A DNA stretch of 64,000 nucleotides, from positions 1-64,000 of the forward strand of contig CALMYL010000005.1 of the NCBI GenBank assembly GCA_937873695.1, in the 5' to 3' direction. Under the pieces are notes generated by a model. The model was not told where the DNA came from. It searched no databases and saw only the letters and a program-made list of their open reading frames with translations. Both the position numbers and the translations under genes were made by a program. Shown in pieces: positions 43,654 to 56,032 of this stretch. This DNA is from an uncultured Ignavibacteria bacterium (lineage in GTDB: Bacteria; Bacteroidota; Ignavibacteria; Tepidaquicellales; OLB5). Position 1 is the stretch's first letter, and each line of letters opens with the position of its first letter.

Positions 43654-44274
43654 ATGGATCTCAAACTGCTGATCGTACTTGTGCCGGTATTGGTTGTGCC
43701 ATGGATAGCATTATACTTTGTACTTGTTGCTTCGAATAAGAGGGTTATATCCAATTTCAAAAAACTATCTGAAAAGTACCAGCTAATTTGCGACTTCAGT
43801 AAAAAAGTAGGTATGAAAACTCACCCGGCAGCAGAAGGTATTTACAGGAACAGACAGGTAAAGATTGAAAGCGTCGTAAGGGATTCCATAGACGGCAAAA
43901 ATGTAATACCACACACCGTTCTTACAGTTGATTGTGCAAATTCAGATAATTTCCACTTCAAAGTCTACAAAAGGAATAAGAAAAATTCGCTGAATTTTTC
44001 TGCGGGTTCAGCAATGATAGATGATAATGAATTTGATGATAAATTTATTATACTTACCAATTCACCCGATAGAATAAAAAAAATGTTCGATTTTAATACA
44101 AAGTTCAAACTTGATCAGGTTCACAGGCTGGGATTCAACGGTCTTTTGGCGCTTGAAGGAAACCGGCTGCTATACATGGAACCTGAACTGCTTTCCAACA
44201 ATGACGCAGTGATGAGACTTGAATTGGTAATGCATGAATTGTGCGACATAGCAGAAATAATGAGGTACAACTGA
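43654..44274 (+). CDS. Membrane-anchored hypothetical protein
   Basis: A 206-residue protein: N-terminal membrane helix (L-K-L-L-I-V-L-V-P-V-L-V-V-P-W-I-A-L), then a cytoplasmic or periplasmic domain rich in Lys/Asn (K-V-G-M-K-T-H-P ... G-I-Y-R-N-R-Q-V-K-I). The T-V-L-T-V-D-C and R-L-G-F-N-G segments are not known to me. Function unknown. Confidence 0.6.
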   Translation: MDLKLLIVLVPVLVVPWIALYFVLVASNKRVISNFKKLSEKYQLICDFSKKVGMKTHPAAEGIYRNRQVKIESVVRDSIDGKNVIPHTVLTVDCANSDNFHFKVYKRNKKNSLNFSAGSAMIDDNEFDDKFIILTNSPDRIKKMFDFNTKFKLDQVHRLGFNGLLALEGNRLLYMEPELLSNNDAVMRLELVMHELCDIAEIMRYN

Positions 44275-44297
44275 TTACCGTATGGTTGAATTTACCG

Positions 44298-44336
44298 CAA
44301 ATAAAAAACTCCTTCAATCTGTTGACCAAAGGAGTT
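44298..44336 (-). terminator. Terminator for the T9SS gene at 44481-46235
   Basis: Stem AACTCCTT / AAGGAGTT (44307-44336) followed on the minus strand by TTTTTTATTT. Confidence 0.8.
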
Positions 44337-44480
44337 GATTTGGGGTAAAACATATATAAAAGGATGCCATGTAGTCTCTATCTAGCCTGCTTCATATCTC
44401 CCCCTGTACGATATTACGAGTAAGTAGCATATGTGTCAATATTTGTTAACTAACCACACTCACGTCTTTTCAAAAACTTG

Positions 44481-46235
44481 TCATTTAACCAGTATCATTC
44501 TTTTGGTATCGCTGAAAATCGAACTGCCATCAGAACTAACTGCAATAATTCTGTAAAAATATACACCGGATGCTAATGATGAAGCATCAAATCCCGCTTC
44601 ATAAGTTCCGGATTTCTGCGGTCCGTTTACAATCTCCGAAATCCTGTTCCCCAGGATGTCATATACTGCAATGTTAATAATTGCGTTCTGTATAATACTG
44701 TACCTTATATTTGTTACCGGGTTAAACGGATTGGGATAATTCTGTTCCAGTTCAAACCTTTCGGGCATGCTGCTGCTTATGTTTGTAATTCCTACAAGCG
44801 GTCCGAAAGTCCCGTCAAATTTTATGTTCTGCGAGTAAATTCCGCCGCCATCATTTCTTTTATCCTGCCAGCATAAAATACTATTGCTGTTTGCGGGGTC
44901 AATTACTGAATTCAGTCTTATCTTTGAGCTTGTAATACTGCCGGCTGTTACAATGTTTCCCGCCCATAGATATGCGCCGCTTGTTCCCATCTTTACAGCT
45001 TTTATTATATTATTGCCGCCCGCAGCCGACTGGTTAAAACATATTATCGCCGATGTATCTTTTGTCATTACAGTATACGCTACCACCTGGTCAGTTCCCA
45101 GTGACTGAATTGCAATTCCGTCAGTTCCCCATTGCCTTGTTCCCGAAGAATTAATCTTCTGCGCATAGAATCCAACCTGTGTTTGTCCGCCGTTGGCTTC
45201 CTGCCATGCAACAAATGTTTCGCCGGTTGCGGGCATATATGCTGCTACCGGTGCAAAATGATTATTTGAAGCGTTACCAGATACTGCCGTGCCGTTCACC
45301 GGGAATTGAATTGCGCCGGCGGAATTCTTCCTTTGAACGTATCCTGTTGTTAAATTAACCGAGTTCCTGTCATCGTGCCAGCAGTAAACAGCCCCGTTAT
45401 TGCCGTCAGAAAATAAACGCGGCGTATAGAATCCTGATACCCTGCCAAGTGAATAAACGGTATCCTGCGTAGCATTCCAAACCCTGGCGCCGGTTGATGA
45501 TACTTTCTGGCTGTATATCCTGTAGTTAGCAGGACTGATAAACGAGCCCGTATACCCTGAAAACATTACTATAACACTTCCGTTATCAGATGGAACCATT
45601 GCCGGCCAGTCATAATTCTCAGCCGTTCCGCTTGTCCATATAATTGGTGATGCGCCCCATTGCTTAACACCTGCCGCATTGATCTTCTGTAATGCAAGTT
45701 TCTGCGGACCTGAGCCCATTCTCCAGAAGAAAACATAATTTCCATCTGAAGTTTGTACAACTTTAGGATTAGGCTGAAATGAATTAATTGAATCGGATAG
45801 TGTTATGCCGTTGGGTCCCCACATTTGAACACCTGCGGAGCTTATCATATATGCAAAAGGATTAATAGTACCGCCGCTTCTTATATCGGTAAAAGTTAAA
45901 ATACAGTTATTGTTATTATCAGCTATCATATCCCAGTCAACCAGTGATGAATTCTGCGGATTGCTGCTGACAAGTATTCCGTTTGCAGCAAACTGCGGAA
46001 CACCGTTCACATCCAGCTTCTGGAGATATACAGCGTAACTTCCGCCGCGGTTATCAAACCACGAGTAATATGTAGAGCCATCTGGACATAACGCCAGTTT
46101 CTGAACTGACTGCTCACCTACCGGATCGGCAACCACTGTATTAACTGCTGGATTAGAACTCCATTGGGAAAGTAAATTGAAACTTACAAATGACAAAAGC
46201 AAAAGGGACTTTTTTACTACCGAACTTAATTTCAT
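44481..46235 (-). CDS. T9SS-sorted secreted protein with repeated DxR segments
   Basis: A 584-residue secreted protein. A signal peptide (S-L-L-L-L-S-F-V-S-F-N-L) is followed by about ten strand-rich repeats with recurring W-x-D-N/D-R motifs (Y-S-W-F-D-N-R-G-G, C-W-H-D-D-R-N, C-W-Q-D-K-R-N) and K-I-N-S/A-A/S-G-x-x-Q-W-G units. These resemble beta-propeller-like surface repeats. A T9SS type-A domain runs from about residue 492 (L-E-Q-N-Y-P-N-P-F-N-P to K-R-M-I-L-V-K). No enzyme motif is visible. The minus-strand unit ends at a strong terminator. Confidence 0.88.
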   Translation of the reverse strand: MKLSSVVKKSLLLLSFVSFNLLSQWSSNPAVNTVVADPVGEQSVQKLALCPDGSTYYSWFDNRGGSYAVYLQKLDVNGVPQFAANGILVSSNPQNSSLVDWDMIADNNNNCILTFTDIRSGGTINPFAYMISSAGVQMWGPNGITLSDSINSFQPNPKVVQTSDGNYVFFWRMGSGPQKLALQKINAAGVKQWGASPIIWTSGTAENYDWPAMVPSDNGSVIVMFSGYTGSFISPANYRIYSQKVSSTGARVWNATQDTVYSLGRVSGFYTPRLFSDGNNGAVYCWHDDRNSVNLTTGYVQRKNSAGAIQFPVNGTAVSGNASNNHFAPVAAYMPATGETFVAWQEANGGQTQVGFYAQKINSSGTRQWGTDGIAIQSLGTDQVVAYTVMTKDTSAIICFNQSAAGGNNIIKAVKMGTSGAYLWAGNIVTAGSITSSKIRLNSVIDPANSNSILCWQDKRNDGGGIYSQNIKFDGTFGPLVGITNISSSMPERFELEQNYPNPFNPVTNIRYSIIQNAIINIAVYDILGNRISEIVNGPQKSGTYEAGFDASSLASGVYFYRIIAVSSDGSSIFSDTKRMILVK

Positions 46236-46377
46236 ATCTAAAAAATTTATATTAAATAATAAGGAATATCTATAAAAATACTTTTACAATGAATATTAAT
46301 CAAATAGAATATACCTGATATTTACCCACCTAAATGATGAAAAATATCATTATTATTGTCCAATTACGCTTAAAAAG

Positions 46378-47850
46378 ATGACTAAACTTACACACCGCAA
46401 TAAGAATCCCAAATTCATTGAAATATTCAGTAATTTCACCGAAAAAGATCGGAAAGACTTCAAAAAATTTGCTGCATGTTCTTTTTTTAGCAAAAAAAGA
46501 GACCATAAACCATTATTAAACAAATTATTGAAGATATACGGGAAATCTACCGGAGATAATACGCAAAATATAAGTGAGATCATCCGCACATCACTGGGGA
46601 TGAGCAGAAGAGCTTTTTGGAACCGGTTATCTGAATTGACCAAAATAGCCGAAAGTTATCTCATTTTCAGTAATACCAAAAACAACCGATTGCTGAGAAA
46701 CAACATTTTGATGGAAGAGTATTCAAACAGAAAAATGAATCAGATATTGAGACTGCAGATCACTCCGCTTATGACTGATATTAAGAATGAAAAAATTGAA
46801 TTAGACACTTACTTTTCAGTTCACAATCTTTATAAAAAGATCAGTGTATATTTTTCTGAGCAGAGCAATTACACTGATTCAGCCAAATATTACAAACTGC
46901 AAACGGAATACTGGCTATTGCATTTCCTTATTGTCCTGTTCAAACAGCTGCTGGATACAGAACTGCAGAAGAAAAACAATATTGATATATCATCCCGTAT
47001 TTCAAAAGAACTGCTTGAGTGCATTGATAAAGAAAAACTTCTCGCGCTGGTAAAACAAAATCTGCCTGTGGTTTCAATACCAGCCGAAATCTACTATCTT
47101 CTTTACTGGGCATTCAAAGAAGCTGACGGATCTGAATTCTATTTTTCAGCCAGGGATATGTTCCTTAAGAATAAGAGCATGTTCGCAATGGAATTCAAGA
47201 ATGAAGTGTATCAGTATTTGAGGAATTATTGTATTGATAAATCAAATACAGGAGAGTCAGGTTATTACAATGAAATATTCGATCTTAACAACAGCATTAT
47301 AGAGGAGGGGCTATTTAAAGACCTGAATGTAGTAAATTCACAAACAAACAATTTCAGGAATTTCATTTTTGCTGCACTGAGGCTCAACAGGTTTGAATGG
47401 GCCGAAAATTTCATAGAGATCCATTCAAAAGAACTTCCCGAAGAGATAAGAGATGACGAAGTGAATCTGAATACAGGCATACTGAGAACTTATAAAAAAG
47501 ATTTCGAAAGCGCTCTGGTTTACCTGAGTAAGGTAAAAAGAAAAAGATACCTGCAGTATCTTGATACAAGTGTTTACAAGCTGATAATTTTTTATGAAAC
47601 AAATGAACTTGAAAACTCATATTCAGAAACAGCAAGGTTAAAAGATTACATGAGAAAGCATAGAGATATACCGGTATATCTGAAAGCAGGCTATCAAAAA
47701 TTTATAAGAATTTATGAAAGCCTGCTTAAATTGGGTCAGAATTATGACAAGACTGAAAATGAATATTATATTATGCAGATGGAACCCATTAAGAACGTCG
47801 GTCTCGGAAGCTGGCTGTACGAAAAAGGAATAGAACTGCTGAAGCCCTGA
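46378..47850 (+). CDS. Unrecognised helical protein, SPFFN-family member 1
   Basis: A 490-residue, nearly all-helical cytoplasmic protein with no signal peptide. The N-terminus E-I-F-S-N-F-T-E-K-D-R-K-D-F-K-K-F-A-A-C-S-F-F-S-K-K is the diverged form of the S-P-F-F-N-K-N block in the two genes at 51052 and 52481. The rest is a run of TPR-like helix pairs (L-R-L-N-R-F-E-W-A-E-N-F-I-E, then D-F-E-S-A-L-V-Y-L-S-K-V-K-R-K-R-Y-L-Q-Y). I know no named family. It is separate in position and strand from its two paralogues. Confidence 0.65.
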   Translation: MTKLTHRNKNPKFIEIFSNFTEKDRKDFKKFAACSFFSKKRDHKPLLNKLLKIYGKSTGDNTQNISEIIRTSLGMSRRAFWNRLSELTKIAESYLIFSNTKNNRLLRNNILMEEYSNRKMNQILRLQITPLMTDIKNEKIELDTYFSVHNLYKKISVYFSEQSNYTDSAKYYKLQTEYWLLHFLIVLFKQLLDTELQKKNNIDISSRISKELLECIDKEKLLALVKQNLPVVSIPAEIYYLLYWAFKEADGSEFYFSARDMFLKNKSMFAMEFKNEVYQYLRNYCIDKSNTGESGYYNEIFDLNNSIIEEGLFKDLNVVNSQTNNFRNFIFAALRLNRFEWAENFIEIHSKELPEEIRDDEVNLNTGILRTYKKDFESALVYLSKVKRKRYLQYLDTSVYKLIIFYETNELENSYSETARLKDYMRKHRDIPVYLKAGYQKFIRIYESLLKLGQNYDKTENEYYIMQMEPIKNVGLGSWLYEKGIELLKP

Positions 47851-47916
47851 AATGGGAAGAGAAATATGCTTTTTTAAGTGTTCAAATTCTACATTTAATT
47901 TTACCCATAAAATTCG

Positions 47917-47924
47917 TAAATTTG
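47917..47924 (+). promoter_or_regulatory. Possible -7 element for icd
   Basis: A perfect TAAATTTG (Bacteroidota -7 consensus) lies 58 nt before the icd ATG. The matching -33 is only ATTT at the expected spacing. Confidence 0.4.
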
Positions 47925-47981
47925 TACTTACACTCCGAAATTATATAATAAATAAAGAACATATTCAAGAAAGGATATTAA

Positions 47982-49418
47982 ATGTCTGGAAATACTCCAA
48001 TTACAGTAGCATATGGCGATGGCATCGGACCCGAAATTATGCAGGCAACGCTTGATATAATTCAGGCAGCTGGCGCTAAATTAGATATTGAAGTTATAGA
48101 AATAGGTGAAAAAGTCTATGGAAAAGGAATAGCCGAAGGCATTGAACCGAGTGCTTGGGATTCATTGTTAAGAACAAAAGTATTTCTGAAGGCTCCCATC
48201 ACAACACCGCAGGGCGGCGGATTCAAAAGCCTGAATGTTGCCACCAGAAAAACTCTTGGGCTATATGCCAATATTCGTCCGTGTGTATCTTACGCTCCTT
48301 ATATACAGACCAAACACCCTATTATGGATGTTGTTATAATGAGAGAAAATGAAGAAGATCTTTATGCCGGAATTGAGTACAGACAAACTGACCAGGTGAT
48401 GCAGGGATTAAAACTTATTTCTTCTCCTGGTTCAGAAAAGATAATCCGCTACGCTTTTGAATATGCCAAAGCCAACGGCAGAAAAAAAGTAACATGCTTC
48501 ATGAAAGATAACATCATGAAATTCACAGACGGTCTTTTTCATAAGATATTTGATAAAGTTGGCGAAGAATATCCTGATATAGAAAAGGAAAGCTGGATAG
48601 TAGATATCGGCGCGGCAAAACTTGCCACCTCACCGGAATCTTTTGATGTTGTTGTAATGGAAAATCTTTACGGCGATATTCTTTCTGATGTAACGGCACA
48701 GATGACAGGTTCAGTAGGACTTGCGGGCTCAGCCAACATCGGCGATAAATGCGCAATGTTCGAGGCCATTCACGGCTCAGCGCCCAGGCGCGCGGGGCAG
48801 AATGCCGCGAATCCATCGGGTCTGCTGCTTGGAGCAGTATTAATGCTGGCGCATATTAATCAATCTGATGTTGCAACAAAAGTACACAATGCATGGCTAA
48901 AAACCCTTGAAGACGGAGTGAACACTTATGATATTTACAGAGAAGGCGTAAGCAAAGAAAAAGTCGGCACAAAGGAATTCGCGCAGGCTGTAATTGCAAG
49001 ACTTGGACAGAAACCAACAACATTAAAGCCTGTAGAGTACCATGACTTTGAAGTGAAAATGCAGCCTCATTATGATTATATGAATATCAAGAAAGCTAAG
49101 AAAGATCTTGTTGGAGTAGATGTATTTTTGCATTGGACAGAAGGTACAGCAGAAGAACTTGGAAGCAAACTGAAAAATATTGCAGTTGAAGGATTAAAGC
49201 TTACAGCAATTACAAACCGCGGCGTGAAAGTTTACCCCGGCGGTATGAAAGAAACTTTCTGTGTTGATCACTGGAGATGCCGTTTCCAGGTTGAAAGCGG
49301 AACTACAACACATGAAAAATTAATTGCACAGCTTGATAAATTCCGCGTGGAAGGATATGATTTCATTAAAACAGAAAATCTTTATACTTTTGACGGCGAA
49401 AACGGCTTCACAGCTTAG
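47982..49418 (+). CDS. icd: NADP-dependent isocitrate dehydrogenase
   Basis: A 478-residue enzyme of the TCA cycle, converting isocitrate to 2-oxoglutarate. Early residues (I-T-V-A-Y-G-D-G-I-G-P-E) and the substrate loop R-E-N-E-E-D-L-Y-A-G-I-E are characteristic. The C-terminal 120-residue extension is typical of the longer bacterial/Thermus-type enzymes. Cofactor choice is inferred from length, not checked. AAAGGA lies just upstream of the ATG. Confidence 0.93.
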   Translation: MSGNTPITVAYGDGIGPEIMQATLDIIQAAGAKLDIEVIEIGEKVYGKGIAEGIEPSAWDSLLRTKVFLKAPITTPQGGGFKSLNVATRKTLGLYANIRPCVSYAPYIQTKHPIMDVVIMRENEEDLYAGIEYRQTDQVMQGLKLISSPGSEKIIRYAFEYAKANGRKKVTCFMKDNIMKFTDGLFHKIFDKVGEEYPDIEKESWIVDIGAAKLATSPESFDVVVMENLYGDILSDVTAQMTGSVGLAGSANIGDKCAMFEAIHGSAPRRAGQNAANPSGLLLGAVLMLAHINQSDVATKVHNAWLKTLEDGVNTYDIYREGVSKEKVGTKEFAQAVIARLGQKPTTLKPVEYHDFEVKMQPHYDYMNIKKAKKDLVGVDVFLHWTEGTAEELGSKLKNIAVEGLKLTAITNRGVKVYPGGMKETFCVDHWRCRFQVESGTTTHEKLIAQLDKFRVEGYDFIKTENLYTFDGENGFTA

Positions 49419-49442
49419 TAGGTATTAAAAATTAAACTCTAA

Positions 49443-49480
49443 ACGGCTCTTCAATAAACATTGCAGAGCCGTTTTTATTT
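49443..49480 (+). terminator. Terminator after icd
   Basis: ACGGCTCT (49443-49450) pairs with AGAGCCGT (49465-49472), followed by TTTTTATTT. Confidence 0.88.
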
Positions 49481-49483
49481 ACT

Positions 49484-49927
49484 ATGCATATATCAATAAA
49501 AACAAAAACTGCTCAAAATTACCGGAAAGTTTTCCAAGGCTTTGATATTAAACTATTTATGAAACTTAAACCACCTTTGGTTGGTTTAAATGTAATGAGA
49601 TTTGATGGCTGCTCAAAAGGTGATATTGTTCAGGTTGAGATCAGTTTTTTAGGATTAAAGCAAAACTGGACATCGCTGATAACTGAAAATGAGAATAACG
49701 AAGACAGGATCTATTTTATTGATGAAGGAATTGTTTTACCCAAACCATTAAAGTATTGGAAACATAAGCACATAATAGAAAAATCTGTTGATAGTAGCAT
49801 AATTATTGATGATATTACGTACAAAACCGGCAATTTTTTGTTTGATTTATTGCTGTTTCCTGTGTTTTTTATGCAGTTTTACTACAGAAAGCCGGTTTAT
49901 AGATCTTATTTCAGCAAATTAAATTGA
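49484..49927 (+). CDS. START-like (SRPBCC) protein
   Basis: A 147-residue protein with the ligand-binding SRPBCC pattern: an early V-F-Q-G-F-D-I-K-L-F helix, L-K-P-P-L-V-G-L-N-V-M-R-F-D-G, then W-T-S-L-I-T ... F-I-D-E-G-I-V-L-P, and K-Y-W-K-H-K-H-I-I-E. Members bind small hydrophobic ligands. It starts in the terminator region and lies 4 nt before the GNAT gene. Confidence 0.7.
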   Translation: MHISIKTKTAQNYRKVFQGFDIKLFMKLKPPLVGLNVMRFDGCSKGDIVQVEISFLGLKQNWTSLITENENNEDRIYFIDEGIVLPKPLKYWKHKHIIEKSVDSSIIIDDITYKTGNFLFDLLLFPVFFMQFYYRKPVYRSYFSKLN

Positions 49928-49931
49928 GTTT

Positions 49932-50330
49932 ATGGTAATAACCTATAAAACAAATGCTAAAATAGAAGCACACGAACTTTCAGACCTGTTTAAGGCTTCC
50001 GGAATAAAGCGCCCGGTAGAAGATCTGAACAGGGTGAAAAACATGATTGATAATTCAAACCTGCTGGTAACCGCATGGGATGGAGAAAAACTTGTTGGCG
50101 TTGCACGGGCACTTAGTGATCTATCATACTGCTGTTACCTTTCTGATCTGGCAGTCGATAAAGAATACCAAAACCAGGGGATCGGGCATGAACTGGTTAA
50201 TGAAATTCAGAAATTGATCGGCGATGAATCTAACCTGGTACTTCTATCAGCACCGGAAGCGATGGAATATTACCCGAAGATTGGATTCGAAAAGGCAGGA
50301 AATGCGTATATAATTTACCGCAAAAAATAG
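49932..50330 (+). CDS. GNAT-family N-acetyltransferase
   Basis: A 132-residue protein with the GNAT acetyl-CoA signature L-S-D-L-A-V-D-K-E-Y-Q-N-Q-G-I-G-H-E-L (Q/R-x-x-G-x-G/A type) near residue 72 and the terminal G-F-E-K-A-G-N-A-Y-I-I-Y-R. Substrate unknown. Same operon as the START-like gene by spacing. Confidence 0.87.
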   Translation: MVITYKTNAKIEAHELSDLFKASGIKRPVEDLNRVKNMIDNSNLLVTAWDGEKLVGVARALSDLSYCCYLSDLAVDKEYQNQGIGHELVNEIQKLIGDESNLVLLSAPEAMEYYPKIGFEKAGNAYIIYRKK

Positions 50331-50394
50331 ACTGCTGTAAAGAGAGTGATAATATAGTGTATTAAATTTATCATTCATTTGGTAAATTTGTAAT

Positions 50395-51036
50395 ATGGAT
50401 GATAAAGAAATTCAGAATTTAAGAAGACAGTATTCAAAAAGCACCTTATCGGTAAGCAGTGTGAGCAAAGACCCTTTCAAACAATTCGAAAAATGGTTTC
50501 AGGATGTATTGAACTCAGGTTTTCTTGAGCCTAACGCAATGACTTTGGCAACAGCCTCCGGAACAGGAAAGCCTTCGGCAAGGGTTGTATTACTTAAGGG
50601 TATTCACGATGGCGGTTTTGTATTCTATACCAATTACAAAAGCAAGAAAGGAAAAGATATTGAAGAGAATCCTTATGGATGTTTATTGTTTTTCTGGGAT
50701 AAACTTGAACGGCAGATAAGAATAGAAGGAAAAATTGAAAAAGTATCACAGAAAGAAAGCGAAGAATATTTTGACACCAGGCCTTATAAAAGCAGGGTTG
50801 GCGCATGGGCATCAAAACAAAGTACGGTTATTGAAAGCCGCTCCGTGATTGTAAAGGAATTCCTTAAGTACATGATGAAATTCAAAACCCACGTACCCCT
50901 TCCGGATGTTTGGGGCGGTTACTCACTAAAGCCTGAGACATTTGAATTCTGGCAAGGCAGGCCAAACAGGCTTCATGACAGGGTGAGATATACTAAAAGC
51001 AAGTCCGGCTGGAAAATTGAAAGGTTAGCACCGTAA
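50395..51036 (+). CDS. pdxH: Pyridoxamine 5'-phosphate oxidase
   Basis: A 213-residue FMN enzyme making pyridoxal phosphate. It shows R-V-V-L-L-K-G near residue 60, the F-Y-T-N-Y-K-S-K-K-G block, the Y-F-D-T-R-P block with S-R-V-G-A-W-A-S-K-Q-S, and the C-terminal F-W-Q-G-R-P-N-R-L-H-D-R. A perfect -7-like TAAATTTG at 50383-50390 lies only 4 nt from the ATG, so the transcript could be leaderless or start further up. Confidence 0.96.
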   Translation: MDDKEIQNLRRQYSKSTLSVSSVSKDPFKQFEKWFQDVLNSGFLEPNAMTLATASGTGKPSARVVLLKGIHDGGFVFYTNYKSKKGKDIEENPYGCLLFFWDKLERQIRIEGKIEKVSQKESEEYFDTRPYKSRVGAWASKQSTVIESRSVIVKEFLKYMMKFKTHVPLPDVWGGYSLKPETFEFWQGRPNRLHDRVRYTKSKSGWKIERLAP

Positions 51037-51051
51037 GAATATTGGATTAAA

Positions 51052-52488
51052 CTACTTTATGAGTTTTTCGGCCTCTTCAACTATCCACAATTTGTAAGCA
51101 AAGTATTCATCCTTTTCCAGGTCCATACATAATTCTTCAGCCGCAATCTTATCTTCTTTGTGCCTAACATTATTTAGCTGGTTCGTATATTTGATGAACT
51201 TCAGGTATTGATTCTTGCGCATATCGGTCATGAACTTATTATTCTGCACTGTTTTTTTGAAAGTATCAAGCAATGACTGCAGCGGAATTGTCCAGTCCAG
51301 GGAGTAATAAATCCGGCTTTGCAGTATCCTCAGATCCATTTTCAGGTAAACCTCTTCGGGTTTGCTTTTAGCAAGATACTCCAGCGCTTTTTCGTAATTG
51401 CCTTCTTCATTTTCAAGGTAGGCCATTCCGTAATAGTAATACGCTTCCCTGGAGCTTTCATGAATTTCATTGTGATGATCTGCTATAAATTTTCGAAGCC
51501 AGTCATATTTCTTCAGTTTGGATGCCGTAACAACCATACTTGAAAAAAAAGAATTAGGCATATAACCGTGTATCTTGTATGTATCTTTCTTCAGTTCAAG
51601 CTCGTAAATCCTGAAAGATTCCAGCAGGTATTCCTGCTTGCCGGTTCTAAGCTGCCTTACACAGTAATTTTCAAGATTGATAAAAAGATCGCCAATTGCA
51701 CCGCCTACCTCGTCTTCATGCTTGATGATAATTTCTTTTAACTGGTAATAATTCTCTTCATTGTCAGGATCAATAAAAAGCTTTATTACCCTGTAATAGA
51801 TCAGTATCAACGGTACCCCGCTGAATTGTTCAGCATTAAAGTTATTCAGTATATTTTCTATGATCTCTGTGTCAATCTTCACATTATACAGGTACATTGT
51901 GTTTAATGTAATAGCATAGTATTTAAGGACGCTGATAAGATAAAACTTTGTGATATTATCCGAAAACAGCTGTATATTATCCCTGGTCAGGTATTTTTCA
52001 TATTTTCCCATATAAATTTCAGCAAGGTATGTCAGTTTATGCTCGGCAAAAAGGTACCTGTTTTCATAATAGTAATCATCTCTAACAATGAACTTATCAA
52101 GTTCCCTGTTCGCCTCATCAATTATGCGCTCAAAATCCTTAAACAACTTCCTTTCAAACAGCTCCTTAAGCAATATGTCTTTTGATTGAAAAATATCGTT
52201 ACTGAACCTGTTGTATGCCAGGAATTTTTCCACAAGCTCATACAGGTAGTACATCAAAAGTCTCAGCGTACTATCCTTATATGGCTTCCCGGGAAAAAGT
52301 TTCAGAAAAATTTTTTCCTTTTCAATTTTACCGGGGTCAAGCTCAGGGTAATTCTTTTTGATTATCTCAAAAAGCCTGATCACATTCACATTCTTATTAA
52401 AAAACGGAGATGATACGAATTCAGAAAATTCTTTTATCTCCTTTGGGCTGAATGTTCTGATAGCTTCTATTAAGCTGCTTTTATTCAT
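51052..52488 (-). CDS. Unrecognised helical protein, SPFFN-family member 2
   Basis: A 478-residue all-helical cytoplasmic protein. The N-terminus L-I-E-A-I-R-T-F-S-P-K-E-I-K-E-F-S-E-F-V-S-S-P-F-F-N-K-N is shared with the upstream paralogue. Later helices show TPR-like spacing (Y-Y-G-M-A-Y-L-E-N-E-E-G-N-Y-E-K-A-L-E-Y-L). The start overlaps the stop of its paralogue at 52481 by 8 nt (ATGAATAA), implying a translationally coupled pair. No function can be assigned. Confidence 0.7.
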   Translation of the reverse strand: MNKSSLIEAIRTFSPKEIKEFSEFVSSPFFNKNVNVIRLFEIIKKNYPELDPGKIEKEKIFLKLFPGKPYKDSTLRLLMYYLYELVEKFLAYNRFSNDIFQSKDILLKELFERKLFKDFERIIDEANRELDKFIVRDDYYYENRYLFAEHKLTYLAEIYMGKYEKYLTRDNIQLFSDNITKFYLISVLKYYAITLNTMYLYNVKIDTEIIENILNNFNAEQFSGVPLILIYYRVIKLFIDPDNEENYYQLKEIIIKHEDEVGGAIGDLFINLENYCVRQLRTGKQEYLLESFRIYELELKKDTYKIHGYMPNSFFSSMVVTASKLKKYDWLRKFIADHHNEIHESSREAYYYYGMAYLENEEGNYEKALEYLAKSKPEEVYLKMDLRILQSRIYYSLDWTIPLQSLLDTFKKTVQNNKFMTDMRKNQYLKFIKYTNQLNNVRHKEDKIAAEELCMDLEKDEYFAYKLWIVEEAEKLIK

Positions 52489-53956
52489 CCGACAATTCTC
52501 CTGTTTTCTTTAATAGCCAGTATTTTTCCAGGGTATTACTTGTACTTTCAATGTCTTCTTTAAGTTTTGCTGAGTCCTTTACTGATCGTTTTTCCTTTAT
52601 TTTCAGAAGCCTTGTGTAGAATTTAAGAAAATTCAGTATTCTTATATACCTCTCTTCCGAAAGTGACTCTTTGTTATTATTCAAAAAGTGACGGTAAGAA
52701 TCGATCTGATATACTGATTGAGTGTGCATATTCAGTTCATAGAATGTCATCAGTGTAAGATCTCTGACAGGCAGTTTATACTGGATATGCCTGATAGTTT
52801 TTATGGAGTTAAGATGCCACAAAGCTTTTTCGAAGATTCCCTTGTTAAACAGCAAGCGCGCATAGCTGTAGTTTATCACAACATCACTGTTATCGGGAGA
52901 AATGTAATTTTTATACTGCTCAATAAAATTCTCAACCCATTCAAACTGCTTCACGGAAATTGCAGTGCCAACAATATTCCCGAAAAGTAAGTCATCAAAG
53001 TAAATATGTTCTTCCGCGGCGTACAGTTTCTGCTCAAGGCATATCTTAAAAAGCTCAAAACGTTCCTGTGTATATGCTTTGCCGTCCGATAGCGGAGAGT
53101 TATTATAACCCTGGTAGACGCAGTAACTTTGCAGAATATTATGCAGGCTGTACATATCGCTCCTGGAAAGTTTGCCTGAACTTGAAATGAATATCTCTTT
53201 CAGTATCCTGTAATTTTCTTCGTTTTTGTTCTTTATTAACAGAACTTCGTTCAGGTGAAGTTTGATCTTCAGTTTTTCCTTAAAATACTTATCCTTTGTA
53301 AGAAGGTATTCCAGAATGTGCTCGATAAACTCATAGTTATGATCAAGCTTCTCATACATATTCTTATCAAGCACAAACCTGTAATGATTCAGAGCTTTTG
53401 CAAGGTAATAGCTGGTAAGCTCATCTTCAATGTATGTTACAGTGTTTTCTGTATAATTCTTAAAATCTTTCTGCTTGAATTTACTCCAGTCCATATATAT
53501 CTCTTTCTGATTCTGGAGTTCATACTTCTTCAGAAAATAGTCCGGGTCCTGGTAGGTTACAGAATTAATATCTTCTTCAATTTCCGAGTAATATTTCAGG
53601 AAAACTTTTTCCAGCTTTCTTTCATTCAATTCCTTGAGAAGATTCATTCCCCTGTTCAAGTCGTCCTTCCTGAAATTAATGTAAGCAAGATAGTCTTCAG
53701 CAAGTTTCCCGAGGTTATATATAACAGTCCTCAGGAACCCGTCATTATATTTTTTCCCGTGAAACAGGCTTTCGAATACCACTTCCTTATCAAGCTTCCT
53801 GTCTTTAAACTCGGGGTAGAATTTCTTCAGGTAGTCGTAAAGGTGCTTCACATGAATATTTTTGTTAAAGAACGGCGATTTGACAAATTCACCAAATTCC
53901 TTAAACTCCTTCGGAGTAAACTTGCCCAATATCCCAAGTAATGTAGCGCTTATCAT
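52481..53956 (-). CDS. Unrecognised helical protein, SPFFN-family member 3
   Basis: About 491 residues from the preferred ATG (M-I-S-A-T-L-L). The N-terminus F-T-P-K-E-F-K-E-F-G-E-F-V-K-S-P-F-F-N-K-N-I-H-V-K-H-L is the same block as in the next gene. The rest is helical and rich in Leu, Lys, Glu and Tyr, with the TPR-like segment Y-A-R-L-L-F-N-K-G-I-F-E-K-A-L-W-H-L-N. It is followed by its paralogue with an 8-nt overlap. An earlier ATG at 54022 has no family support. Confidence 0.7.
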   Translation of the reverse strand: MISATLLGILGKFTPKEFKEFGEFVKSPFFNKNIHVKHLYDYLKKFYPEFKDRKLDKEVVFESLFHGKKYNDGFLRTVIYNLGKLAEDYLAYINFRKDDLNRGMNLLKELNERKLEKVFLKYYSEIEEDINSVTYQDPDYFLKKYELQNQKEIYMDWSKFKQKDFKNYTENTVTYIEDELTSYYLAKALNHYRFVLDKNMYEKLDHNYEFIEHILEYLLTKDKYFKEKLKIKLHLNEVLLIKNKNEENYRILKEIFISSSGKLSRSDMYSLHNILQSYCVYQGYNNSPLSDGKAYTQERFELFKICLEQKLYAAEEHIYFDDLLFGNIVGTAISVKQFEWVENFIEQYKNYISPDNSDVVINYSYARLLFNKGIFEKALWHLNSIKTIRHIQYKLPVRDLTLMTFYELNMHTQSVYQIDSYRHFLNNNKESLSEERYIRILNFLKFYTRLLKIKEKRSVKDSAKLKEDIESTSNTLEKYWLLKKTGELSDE

Positions 53957-54295
53957 CAAATTGTGCTGGAAATTTAAAACAATATAAGGTACTTTTTTGC
54001 TATATAAAACGCATTTTAACAATCATTTTTAACAATTTTACAAACAGATATCCCCAAAGAAGCCTTACTTTTTAAAAACAACTGATTTTACAATTCCTTT
54101 TCCAATCCTGAATAACAATTACAAAAATTTTTTCCTGTGCTACCTGCCATATTTTTAAACAAGTTATGAAAACCGGATTTTATGCGGGTGTGTTTTTCGG
54201 GGCTCAACAATTGAACTTGTGCAAAATGATTTCTTTGTACAGATGAGGCATAATATCTAAATTTGTACCAATTATAAAATCAGTAAAAAAGATCA
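53957..54295. other. 339-bp intergenic region between divergent genes
   Basis: Separates the minus-strand SPFFN pair from the small plus-strand T9SS gene. It is AT-rich. On the plus strand a strong promoter is at 54234-54265. I saw no clear promoter for the minus-strand gene and no reading frame of note. Confidence 0.6.
54234..54265 (+). promoter_or_regulatory. Bacteroidota-type promoter for the gene at 54296
   Basis: Perfect -33 TTTG (54234-54237), 20-nt spacer and perfect -7 TAAATTTG (54258-54265), about 30 nt before the ATG. Confidence 0.75.
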
Positions 54296-54790
54296 ATGAA
54301 AGCAATATTTATTCTGGTATTATTTTCCGCGCAAATTTTTCCGCATAATATGTTCGTTAACGATCACGTTAGTTTTGAATACGGTGATACAGAGAACAAA
54401 AATAAAACATCGGTTCTGACCGAAACCGAAGTTAATAGTGAATCCGCCTTTTTGTCCGCTGTTACATTGAACATGAATCTGGCAAATGAAAAAAATACAC
54501 TCCAAAAGACTTCTTCTGATATCCCCGGGGGATATTACCTTGGCCAAAATTCATCACAGCAGACCGGCCTTTATGCAAACATTTATTTCAGCATCCCGGT
54601 GAAGCAGCATGTGAGGCTTGTTGTATTAAATATGCTTGGTCAGGAGATCAATCAGCTTATCAGCCAAAATATTGATGAAGGTACATATAAGATCAATTTT
54701 GATGCTTCCGAAGTAGTTTCAGGGCTATACATCTGCAGACTGGAAACAGAGAAATTTGTGGATTCAAAAAGAATAATGCTTGTAAAATAA
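54296..54790 (+). CDS. Short T9SS-type sorting-domain protein
   Basis: A 164-residue secreted protein. After a signal peptide and about 55 residues of low-complexity sequence, almost everything is a sorting-domain-like unit (Y-Y-L-G-Q-N-S-S-Q-Q-T-G-L-Y, then L-G-Q-E-I-N-Q-L, G-T-Y-K-I-N-F-D-A-S-E and G-L-Y-I-C-R-L to K-R-I-M-L-V-K). The Y-P-N-P-F-N-P motif has become N-S-S-Q-Q-T. It is a near-minimal T9SS cargo or a remnant of a larger one. Confidence 0.75.
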   Translation: MKAIFILVLFSAQIFPHNMFVNDHVSFEYGDTENKNKTSVLTETEVNSESAFLSAVTLNMNLANEKNTLQKTSSDIPGGYYLGQNSSQQTGLYANIYFSIPVKQHVRLVVLNMLGQEINQLISQNIDEGTYKINFDASEVVSGLYICRLETEKFVDSKRIMLVK

Positions 54791-55131
54791 GACAAAAGTG
54801 TACTGTTATCGGGAAACAAATCAATTTAAAAATCAAAAAAATAAGGCTGAAATTCATCAATTTGACAGAATTATAGGATTTTTTTTGAAACATTGAGGAA
54901 AATCTTTCAATTTAAGCAGCATCAAAACTTCAAAACAAATGTTTCCATCCATTAAAATCAGTAAAAACATTAATTTAGGTACTATCAGAAATGCCTGAAA
55001 TTACCCTGAACTAAACAAACACTAAACAAAGTAGAAATCATTTCTTTGTATAGAACAGCAATCAAGACTATTTTTGTAAGGTAAGTAAAATTTCAAATTA
55101 AATTCACAAAAACAAGAAAGGAATCAATACA
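54791..55131. other. 341-bp intergenic region
   Basis: AT-rich, no reading frame of note. It ends in a strong Bacteroidota promoter (55045-55076) and the 5' leader of the next gene. Confidence 0.6.
55045..55076 (+). promoter_or_regulatory. Bacteroidota-type promoter for the gene at 55132
   Basis: Perfect -33 TTTG (55045-55048), 20-nt spacer and perfect -7 TATTTTTG (55069-55076). A leader of about 50 nt with AGAAAGGAAT precedes the ATG. Confidence 0.75.
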
Positions 55132-55542
55132 ATGTTCGGATTCGGAAAAAAGATCGAAAAAGACCCCAAAAAAGCACTCGAAAATGCTGATAAAGCAATC
55201 AACTCAGGGGTTTCAGGCTTCTTAACAAAAACATTCATGGGTCAGGATTTTGTTGACCAGACAAATGCATCACTTAACATGGCAAAAAACTACACAGATA
55301 CAAGCAATCTAAGCCAGACAGGAATGGGCGGCACCGCCGATGTACTTAGCATTGAAGATACCGGGGCGCTTATCAATTACAATCCCGTTGTAAGAATGAA
55401 GTTAAGGATCACACCGCAGTTCGGCCCGGCTTTTGAAACAACGGCAGAAACCGCAGTTTCCAAAATTGCCATTCCCAGGGTTGGCGATAAAATTAACATA
55501 AAATACAACCCGGCTAACACATCACAGGTTCTGGTTGTATAA
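55132..55542 (+). CDS. Hypothetical cytoplasmic protein
   Basis: A 136-residue protein. The N-terminal helix is K-D-P-K-K-A-L-E-N-A-D-K-A-I. The C-terminal half G-T-A-D-V-L-S-I-E-D-T-G-A-L-I-N-Y-N-P-V-V-R-M-K-L-R-I ... I-P-R-V-G-D-K-I-N-I-K-Y-N-P-A-N-T resembles a beta domain in many proteins of unknown function, often near SHOCT domains. No signal peptide. It is preceded by a very strong promoter and followed by a lipoprotein gene at 34 nt. Confidence 0.6.
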   Translation: MFGFGKKIEKDPKKALENADKAINSGVSGFLTKTFMGQDFVDQTNASLNMAKNYTDTSNLSQTGMGGTADVLSIEDTGALINYNPVVRMKLRITPQFGPAFETTAETAVSKIAIPRVGDKINIKYNPANTSQVLVV

Positions 55543-55576
55543 AATTCAAATAAACAATACAGGAGGAATTCACAAA

Positions 55577-55984
55577 ATGAGGTTCACAAAAATAGCATTA
55601 CTTTTATTTGCAGTTGTCGCAGTTTTTTCAGGCTGCGGCAGAATAAAACAGATCCAGCAGATCACCGACAAATTCTCAGGTGACAGGCTTTATTTCTGTG
55701 AAAGATACGTAACCAAAGAAATAGGAGAAGATACAAAATTTAAACCCGGAAAAATTACCGTAATGGTAAAACTGCAGAATCCGATTGGTGAAAAGGAAGT
55801 TGACATAAATGTTACCGATGCGGCAACCGGGAAAGCAGTTGATACATTTCCTTTCACCGTTCAATCAAGCTGGGATTATATTCATTTTGATGACGTTGAA
55901 TTCAAAGAAAAAGGAAAGTACAAAGTTAGCTGTTTAAAAAAGAACGGTGACGTTATCTGCAGCGGTGAAGTGGAAATTATATGA
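55577..55984 (+). CDS. Predicted lipoprotein
   Basis: About 135 residues from the preferred ATG (AGGAGG 10 nt upstream); a longer frame lacks a signal peptide. The N-terminus ends in V-F-S-G-C, a lipobox. The mature part (about 115 residues) is beta-rich, with V-M-V-K-L-Q-N-P-I-G-E-K-E-V-D-I-N-V and F-T-V-Q-S-S-W-D-Y-I-H-F-D, an Ig-like fold by appearance. No family recognised. Confidence 0.65.
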   Translation: MRFTKIALLLFAVVAVFSGCGRIKQIQQITDKFSGDRLYFCERYVTKEIGEDTKFKPGKITVMVKLQNPIGEKEVDINVTDAATGKAVDTFPFTVQSSWDYIHFDDVEFKEKGKYKVSCLKKNGDVICSGEVEII

Positions 55985-56032
55985 TAATTATTTTATAAAA
56001 GCAGATTAAATAATTATAAAGAAACATTCAGC

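Follow-up and report, generated by a model that had tools for sequence, protein, structure and literature searches.

Regulators of the LysR type are local regulators encoded divergently from their targets. Genomes with a T9SS hold many cargo genes, and to our knowledge little is known about the control of single T9SS cargoes. The closest described proteins are those of the BT2802 family (NCBIfam NF058569) of Bacteroides ribose utilisation. BT2802 is presumably RusR, which fits the numbering of the locus. PMC12596196 names RusR as regulator of the ribose locus Rus, BT2803-2809.

The locus considered here lies in a window of 64,000 nucleotides (contig CALMYL010000005.1) of an uncultured Ignavibacteria bacterium and includes three members of a family named here after its SPFFN motif. 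They resemble the BT2802 family in length, and the SPFFN alignment matches BT2802-like proteins end to end, whereas identity is 17%, the SPFFN branch counts 39 copies in its own genome, often facing T9SS cargo genes, and the window proteins lack a direct match to NF058569. As in the LysR type, a stand-alone family gene is divergent from its presumed target across a promoter-sized gap. Unlike LysR-type proteins, the family has no HTH family match and no sequence relation to them was found, the likeness being one of gene placement. Most likely, the family members are transcription regulators from the BT2802/RusR superfamily that act locally on the gene or operon across the shared intergenic region, very often that of a T9SS surface protein, a reading to which we give a probability of roughly 0.6. 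If it is true, the near-invariant divergent placement in a large family would lead to a testable answer on cargo control, and a function would be assigned to many 'hypothetical' proteins of Ignavibacteria and Saprospirales. The open-licence PMC literature yielded no description of the family and none of a divergent regulator linked to T9SS cargo.

Three window genes and the size of the family

The three homologous open reading frames of the original prediction (Table 1) are confirmed. P0002 and P0003 are homologous end to end (31% identity, E 2e-52) and do overlap by 8 nt (52481-52488), as had been read, and P0001 matches each of them over the full length with 21-24% identity (E 2e-15). The N-terminal block F-x-x-K-E-x-K-E-F-x-x-F-V-x-S-P-F-F-N-K-N, which had been ascribed to all three proteins, holds for P0002 and P0003, whereas in P0001 it is degenerate (FTEKDRKDFKKFAACSFFSKKR) and devoid of SPFFN. 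Across 148 family proteins, the N-terminal 100 residues are basic, with a mean net charge of +4.1 and a median pI of 9.3.

Table 1. Features of the window at and around the three family genes
Feature	Position	Strand	Description
Divergent partner of P0001	44481..46235	-	584 aa, signal-like N-terminus, T9SS C-terminal sorting domain (PF18962 34.3 bits, above the 27-bit cut-off)
Shared intergenic region, P0001/cargo	46236..46377	.	142 bp
Family member 1 (P0001)	46378..47850	+	490 aa, diverged N-terminal block; 1 of 39 genome copies
Family member 2 (P0002)	51052..52488	-	478 aa, second gene of overlapping pair; pair kept in other genomes
Family member 3 (P0003)	52481..53956	-	491 aa from ATG at 53956; first gene of pair
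P0003 domains			Predicted 5-helix N-terminal domain, residues about 1-97; predicted TPR-like superhelix, about 98-491
Shared intergenic region, P0003/divergent partner	53957..54295	.	Conserved stretch adjoining P0003 start
Divergent partner of P0003/P0002 pair	54296..54790	+	164 aa, signal-like N-terminus, weak T9SS sorting tail

No settled domain claims these proteins, as had been supposed; Pfam, NCBIfam, PADLOC and PDB sequences return weak or single-repeat TPR-like matches only. No Pfam or NCBIfam model exceeds its cut-off in the three window proteins, the best TPR model reaching 13.5 bits for a gathering score of 26.3, and no PDB chain matches them with a meaningful E-value. A profile of 77 rows (A3, the three window proteins with 74 of the 79 loci from a scan of named genomes) matches designed TPR chains across about 40 residues only. 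A defence system was rejected, PADLOC recognising 0/3 window proteins.

The description as a three-member family proved wrong. The own genome (3.78 Mb) holds 39 matches to P0003, nearly all full-length (E 0 to 7e-4), one of them with an internal stop. This decayed copy, L033:4986-6095 (G000:C7:197148-198542), has an in-frame TAG and is left out of the paralogue alignment A1, which holds the 38 others. Copies number 49, 44 and 56 in three congeners (G016, G036 and G132), 46 and 12 in two genomes from the same order, and 19 in the cultured isolate Flavilitoribacter nigricans. Two more Bacteroidia genomes, found by way of loci, have 8 and 3, and another member of the phylum has 3. These copy numbers come from genome-wide searches only, alignment searches having scored at most 8 (class) or 5 (phylum) candidates per genome. 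Within the class, 37/197 genomes match at E<=1e-5, including 9/9 other congeners listed and 20/21 genomes of the order's second family; in the phylum sample, 31/296 match at E<=1e-3, several of them weakly. The 79 loci kept from the named genome scan come from Ignavibacteria MAGs (among them OLB5, placed by NCBI in Ignavibacteria), Saprospiraceae, Lewinella, Chitinophagales and others.

In a FastTree tree, built without 26 extra Ignavibacteria rows, the copies of the own genome and of G016 are interleaved, so the expansion predates the split of these species, and a branch with support 77 sets the Bacteroidia copies apart on one side. Since members occur in Saprospirales, the family is not confined to the lineage. 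The announced lineage-specific expansion stands as a paralogous expansion, with large numbers mainly in Ignavibacteria, but not as a restriction, given the relatives in Saprospiraceae, Chitinophagales and Flavilitoribacter nigricans. An origin from a mobile element or phage was rejected, with 0 relatives among 123 viral pattern hits and no plasmid or phage match.

Divergent placement and partner genes

The upstream neighbour of a family gene, when not itself a member, is nearly always divergent. This is the case for 33/35 neighbours in the own genome against 34/159 for background genes (p 2.6e-16), 27/29 against 26/136 in G016, 59/60 against 51/243 in other Ignavibacteria loci and 31/32 against 53/149 in Bacteroidia loci. 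Both sets of other loci together give 90/92, the background ranging from 19 to 36%. Loci of related genomes not being independent, they were clustered at 45% identity, and 51/53 are then divergent. Genes were called by a crude greedy pick of ORFs of at least 100 aa, the background excluding genes that adjoin family genes; for G016, regions with 35 of the 49 matches were taken, 33 having both neighbours. A co-directional upstream gene is mostly another family member (3/5 and 18/20), and when tandem copies are included and genes of at least 60 aa are called, divergent placement amounts to 33/39 (own genome) and 81/110 (others). The divergent gap is promoter-sized, with medians of 284 and 276 bp between ORFs. 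On the downstream side, a convergent neighbour at short distance is frequent (25/38 and 64/110; median gaps 42 and 47 bp). Many family genes are thus lone reversed units among co-directional genes.

The opposite gene frequently encodes T9SS cargo. In the own genome, which encodes the T9SS translocon SprA, 19/33 divergent neighbours have a sorting domain, by Pfam PF18962 as well as by NCBIfam TIGR04183, and 14/33 have none. Several of the 19 also contain beta-propeller repeats. For background genes, divergent neighbours with a sorting domain number 1/34, 0/26, 4/51 and 0/53 (own genome, G016, Ignavibacteria, Bacteroidia). In Bacteroidia, the domain is found in 23/30 divergent versus 6/30 downstream neighbours. 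The downstream set (A7) holds 30 of 31 neighbours, L154:6854-9874 being dropped because the following family gene has it as upstream partner; our own HMM identifies it as a sorting-domain protein, and its inclusion would make the downstream count 7/31. The Bacteroidia neighbour lists omit L117 and L130, placed with Ignavibacteria, and L148, a near-copy of L144. The contrast is weaker in G016, with 12/27 divergent, 9/29 downstream and 23/174 background genes. The own genome has at least 150 sorting-domain hits, so most cargo genes are without a family partner.

Both window loci have a divergent partner. Orthologues of P0001 occur in L087, L112 and, split, in L089, all facing a gene similar to that of the 584-aa cargo. 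The split orthologue belongs to OLB5 and is in two parts at L089:7996-9419. The intergenic block 46301-46329 (CAAATAGAA...TTTACCCAC), conserved in 4/4 orthologous loci and occurring once in the genome, is a candidate operator as judged from its conservation. The 164-aa partner of the P0003/P0002 pair scores 22.7 bits with PF18962, below the 27-bit cut-off (E 1.3e-4). A counterpart exists in 5/9 genomes with close P0003 orthologues, and the other 4/9 keep the pair without the small cargo.

In the model proposed, family genes, single or in short tandems, are transcribed outward from an intergenic region of a few hundred bases, and the gene or operon opposite would be their target. The placement and the cargo association suggest that each family gene is a local switch for the adjoining surface-protein gene. 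Between -70 and -20 of family genes, a promoter-like -7 element is enriched (19/156 versus 7.1 in shuffled sequences). Upstream inverted repeats show no excess (74/156 versus 66.3 shuffled, arm 7), and palindromic operators were rejected on this basis. Rfam, searched with positions 44000-56000, recognises neither a riboswitch nor any other known RNA in the intergenic regions.

No co-variation between family and cargo sequences is seen in the 19 pairs compared (Mantel r 0.01, 2280/5000 permutations as high), and duplication of regulator-cargo units as blocks was rejected on this negative result. The result also agrees with an explanation by insertion or promoter architecture, in which only divergent slots beside large monocistronic cargo genes are tolerated and no functional link exists. 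The gain or loss of the partner around the P0003/P0002 pair points the same way, as does the abundance of sorting-domain genes, which makes chance cargo neighbours not rare. This explanation is nevertheless improbable, as sorting-domain genes are hardly ever found opposite divergent background genes, two classes share the pattern, a sister branch shows it with leuA, and relatives on plasmids, phages or viral contigs were not found.

Among the other partners are short GYRLxPETH proteins, sometimes encoded ahead of a cargo gene, as well as fn3 proteins and secreted proteins of small size. The recurrent fibronectin-type-III-like partner has about 89-116 aa and no obvious signal peptide (L031:6742-7011, L034:4443-4712, L035:6607-6942, L097, L099, L101-L104). 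GYRLxPETH proteins, RHH-like by eye, occupy the divergent slot in L046:6603-6806, L047:6633-6893 and L052:4625-4825, the gene lying directly before a sorting-domain cargo gene in L046 and L047. In several secreted partners, divergent or neighbouring (L122, L130, L137, L145, L146), a dockerin-like tail (GD..VD..D...ADNNA.NFVS.I.P) replaces the usual sorting domain. A Peptidase_S74 (chaperone of endosialidase) domain, as found in phage tail spikes, is present in three divergent partners of the own genome (L032, L036, L052).

Predicted structure

The AlphaFold2 model of P0003, based on the 77-sequence alignment, is made of helices throughout (mean pLDDT 91.2, pTM 0.81), which bears out the TPR-like helices noticed at the outset. 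The proteins are considered cytoplasmic and all-helical, a basic N-terminal domain of five helices preceding the TPR-like superhelix. Foldseek lists helical-repeat proteins of the PDB, none at E<=1e-3. VIA places Rap/NprR at the top of its ranking over residues about 130-491 (8rsv, Z 16.1, 288 aligned, rmsd 5.7, model residues 139-491), and matches include NprR 5dbk (Z 14.0, 287 aligned, rmsd 6.7) and MalT 1hz4 (Z 12.9, 283 aligned, rmsd 6.7). As helical repeats easily give high Z values, the match to Rap/NprR is taken as that of a TPR superhelix and not as kinship. The likeness to Rap/NprR (RRNPP) and to MalT domain III is thus a structural resemblance only.

Folded alone, residues 1-101 form five helices with a pLDDT of 94. 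With this N-terminal model, Foldseek returns no match (best E 4.5) and VIA weak rows only (best Z 6.2), and neither search recognised a DNA-binding fold in it. The absence of a fold match is no evidence of a new fold. In the mechanism favoured here, contact with DNA or polymerase at the shared promoter region would be made through the N-terminal domain, and it would fall to the superhelix to sense a ligand or a partner, as in Rap, NprR and MalT.

A rival reading would make the proteins peptide receptors of the Rap/NprR (RRNPP) kind that sense a re-imported fragment of the neighbouring secreted protein, which is signalling and not simple local control. Rap and NprR are indeed the best structural neighbours, the partner is often secreted, and secreted ORFs of 60-70 aa adjoin the family gene in some loci (L037, L039, L054). 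However, such ORFs are present in a minority of loci, no dedicated propeptide gene was seen, no conserved mature peptide was found, structural matches among helical repeats are common, and the searches gave weak rows and no clear match of the N-terminal model to the known RRNPP N-terminal domains (HTH or 3-helix bundle). This reading is regarded as highly improbable.

The BT2802-like sister branch

The weak hits of the phylum sample are Bacteroidota proteins of about 515 aa. HHalign aligns the paralogues (A1) with eight such BT2802-like proteins (A8) over 446 columns, 2-482 against 6-498, with a probability of 98.0 and E 2e-13. Proteins of the A8 type match NF058569 ('BT2802 family ribose utilization protein') over the full length in 4/4 cases scanned (E 6e-39 to 3e-47), and 0/3 window proteins match it at E<=1. 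The 550-bit cut-off of this model is reached neither by the BT2802-like relatives nor in the own genome, where the best score, 196.6 bits, is that of a sister-branch gene outside the 39. As judged from these profile comparisons, the family forms a large and so far unnamed branch within the BT2802/RusR-like superfamily. The view that it belonged to no known family is thus right for curated families, although the wider superfamily does accommodate it.

The five sister genes of the own genome form four units, and 4/4 units are divergent from the gene of a sorting-domain (T9SS cargo) protein. As for the SPFFN genes, a local partner is placed divergently, in 15/18 sister units (4 of the own genome and 14 from other genomes). 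A gene with a leuA motif lies on the opposite strand in the locus of 18/28 distinct sister genes; 4/4 such neighbours tested are 2-isopropylmalate synthases, and one other neighbour is LeuC and one P-II.

The reading as local regulators draws on this superfamily, which is divergent from LeuA, P-II and surface-protein genes and includes the regulator of a ribose locus. As no DNA-binding fold, no palindrome excess and no co-variation were found and many partners have no sorting domain, we infer local regulation, with DNA binding, control of the neighbour and the nature of the signal, from placement and remote homology. Of the two roles first guessed for the family, regulation is the best-supported reading, through the divergent placement and the remote BT2802/RusR-like homology, and scaffolding found no support.

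The proteins are unlikely to act as cytoplasmic chaperones or targeting factors dedicated to a cargo, with the TPR superhelix holding the neighbouring T9SS cargo precursor before Sec export. TPR chaperones serve type III secretion, and the strong link to T9SS cargo genes, the TPR superhelix itself and the lack of a recognised DNA-binding fold all suit this role. Chaperones are, however, usually co-transcribed with their client, whereas nearly all family genes are divergent; some of the partners, small fn3 proteins, lack an obvious signal peptide, co-variation with cargo is absent, and the sister-branch partners LeuA and LeuC, cytoplasmic enzymes, and P-II need no export chaperone.

A more doubtful extension of the local-regulator reading is a system of one regulator for one surface protein. 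The own genome would then contain about 44 dispersed RusR-superfamily genes (39 SPFFN and 5 BT2802-like), most of which would control the exported-protein gene divergent from them. The T9SS surface coat would be switched item by item, the superhelix reading a signal tied to the cargo, and the T9SS would have a dedicated cargo-level regulator family.

Outside the T9SS, a regulator of leucine biosynthesis is predicted in many Bacteroidia from the sister branch, the sister gene linked to leuA or LeuC being a candidate. Bacteroidia sister genes divergent from the gene of 2-isopropylmalate synthase (or LeuC) are those of L202, L205, L206, L208, L210, L211 and L213. In L209, a gene for a P-II nitrogen regulatory protein (L209:7753-8094) is the divergent neighbour of the sister gene.
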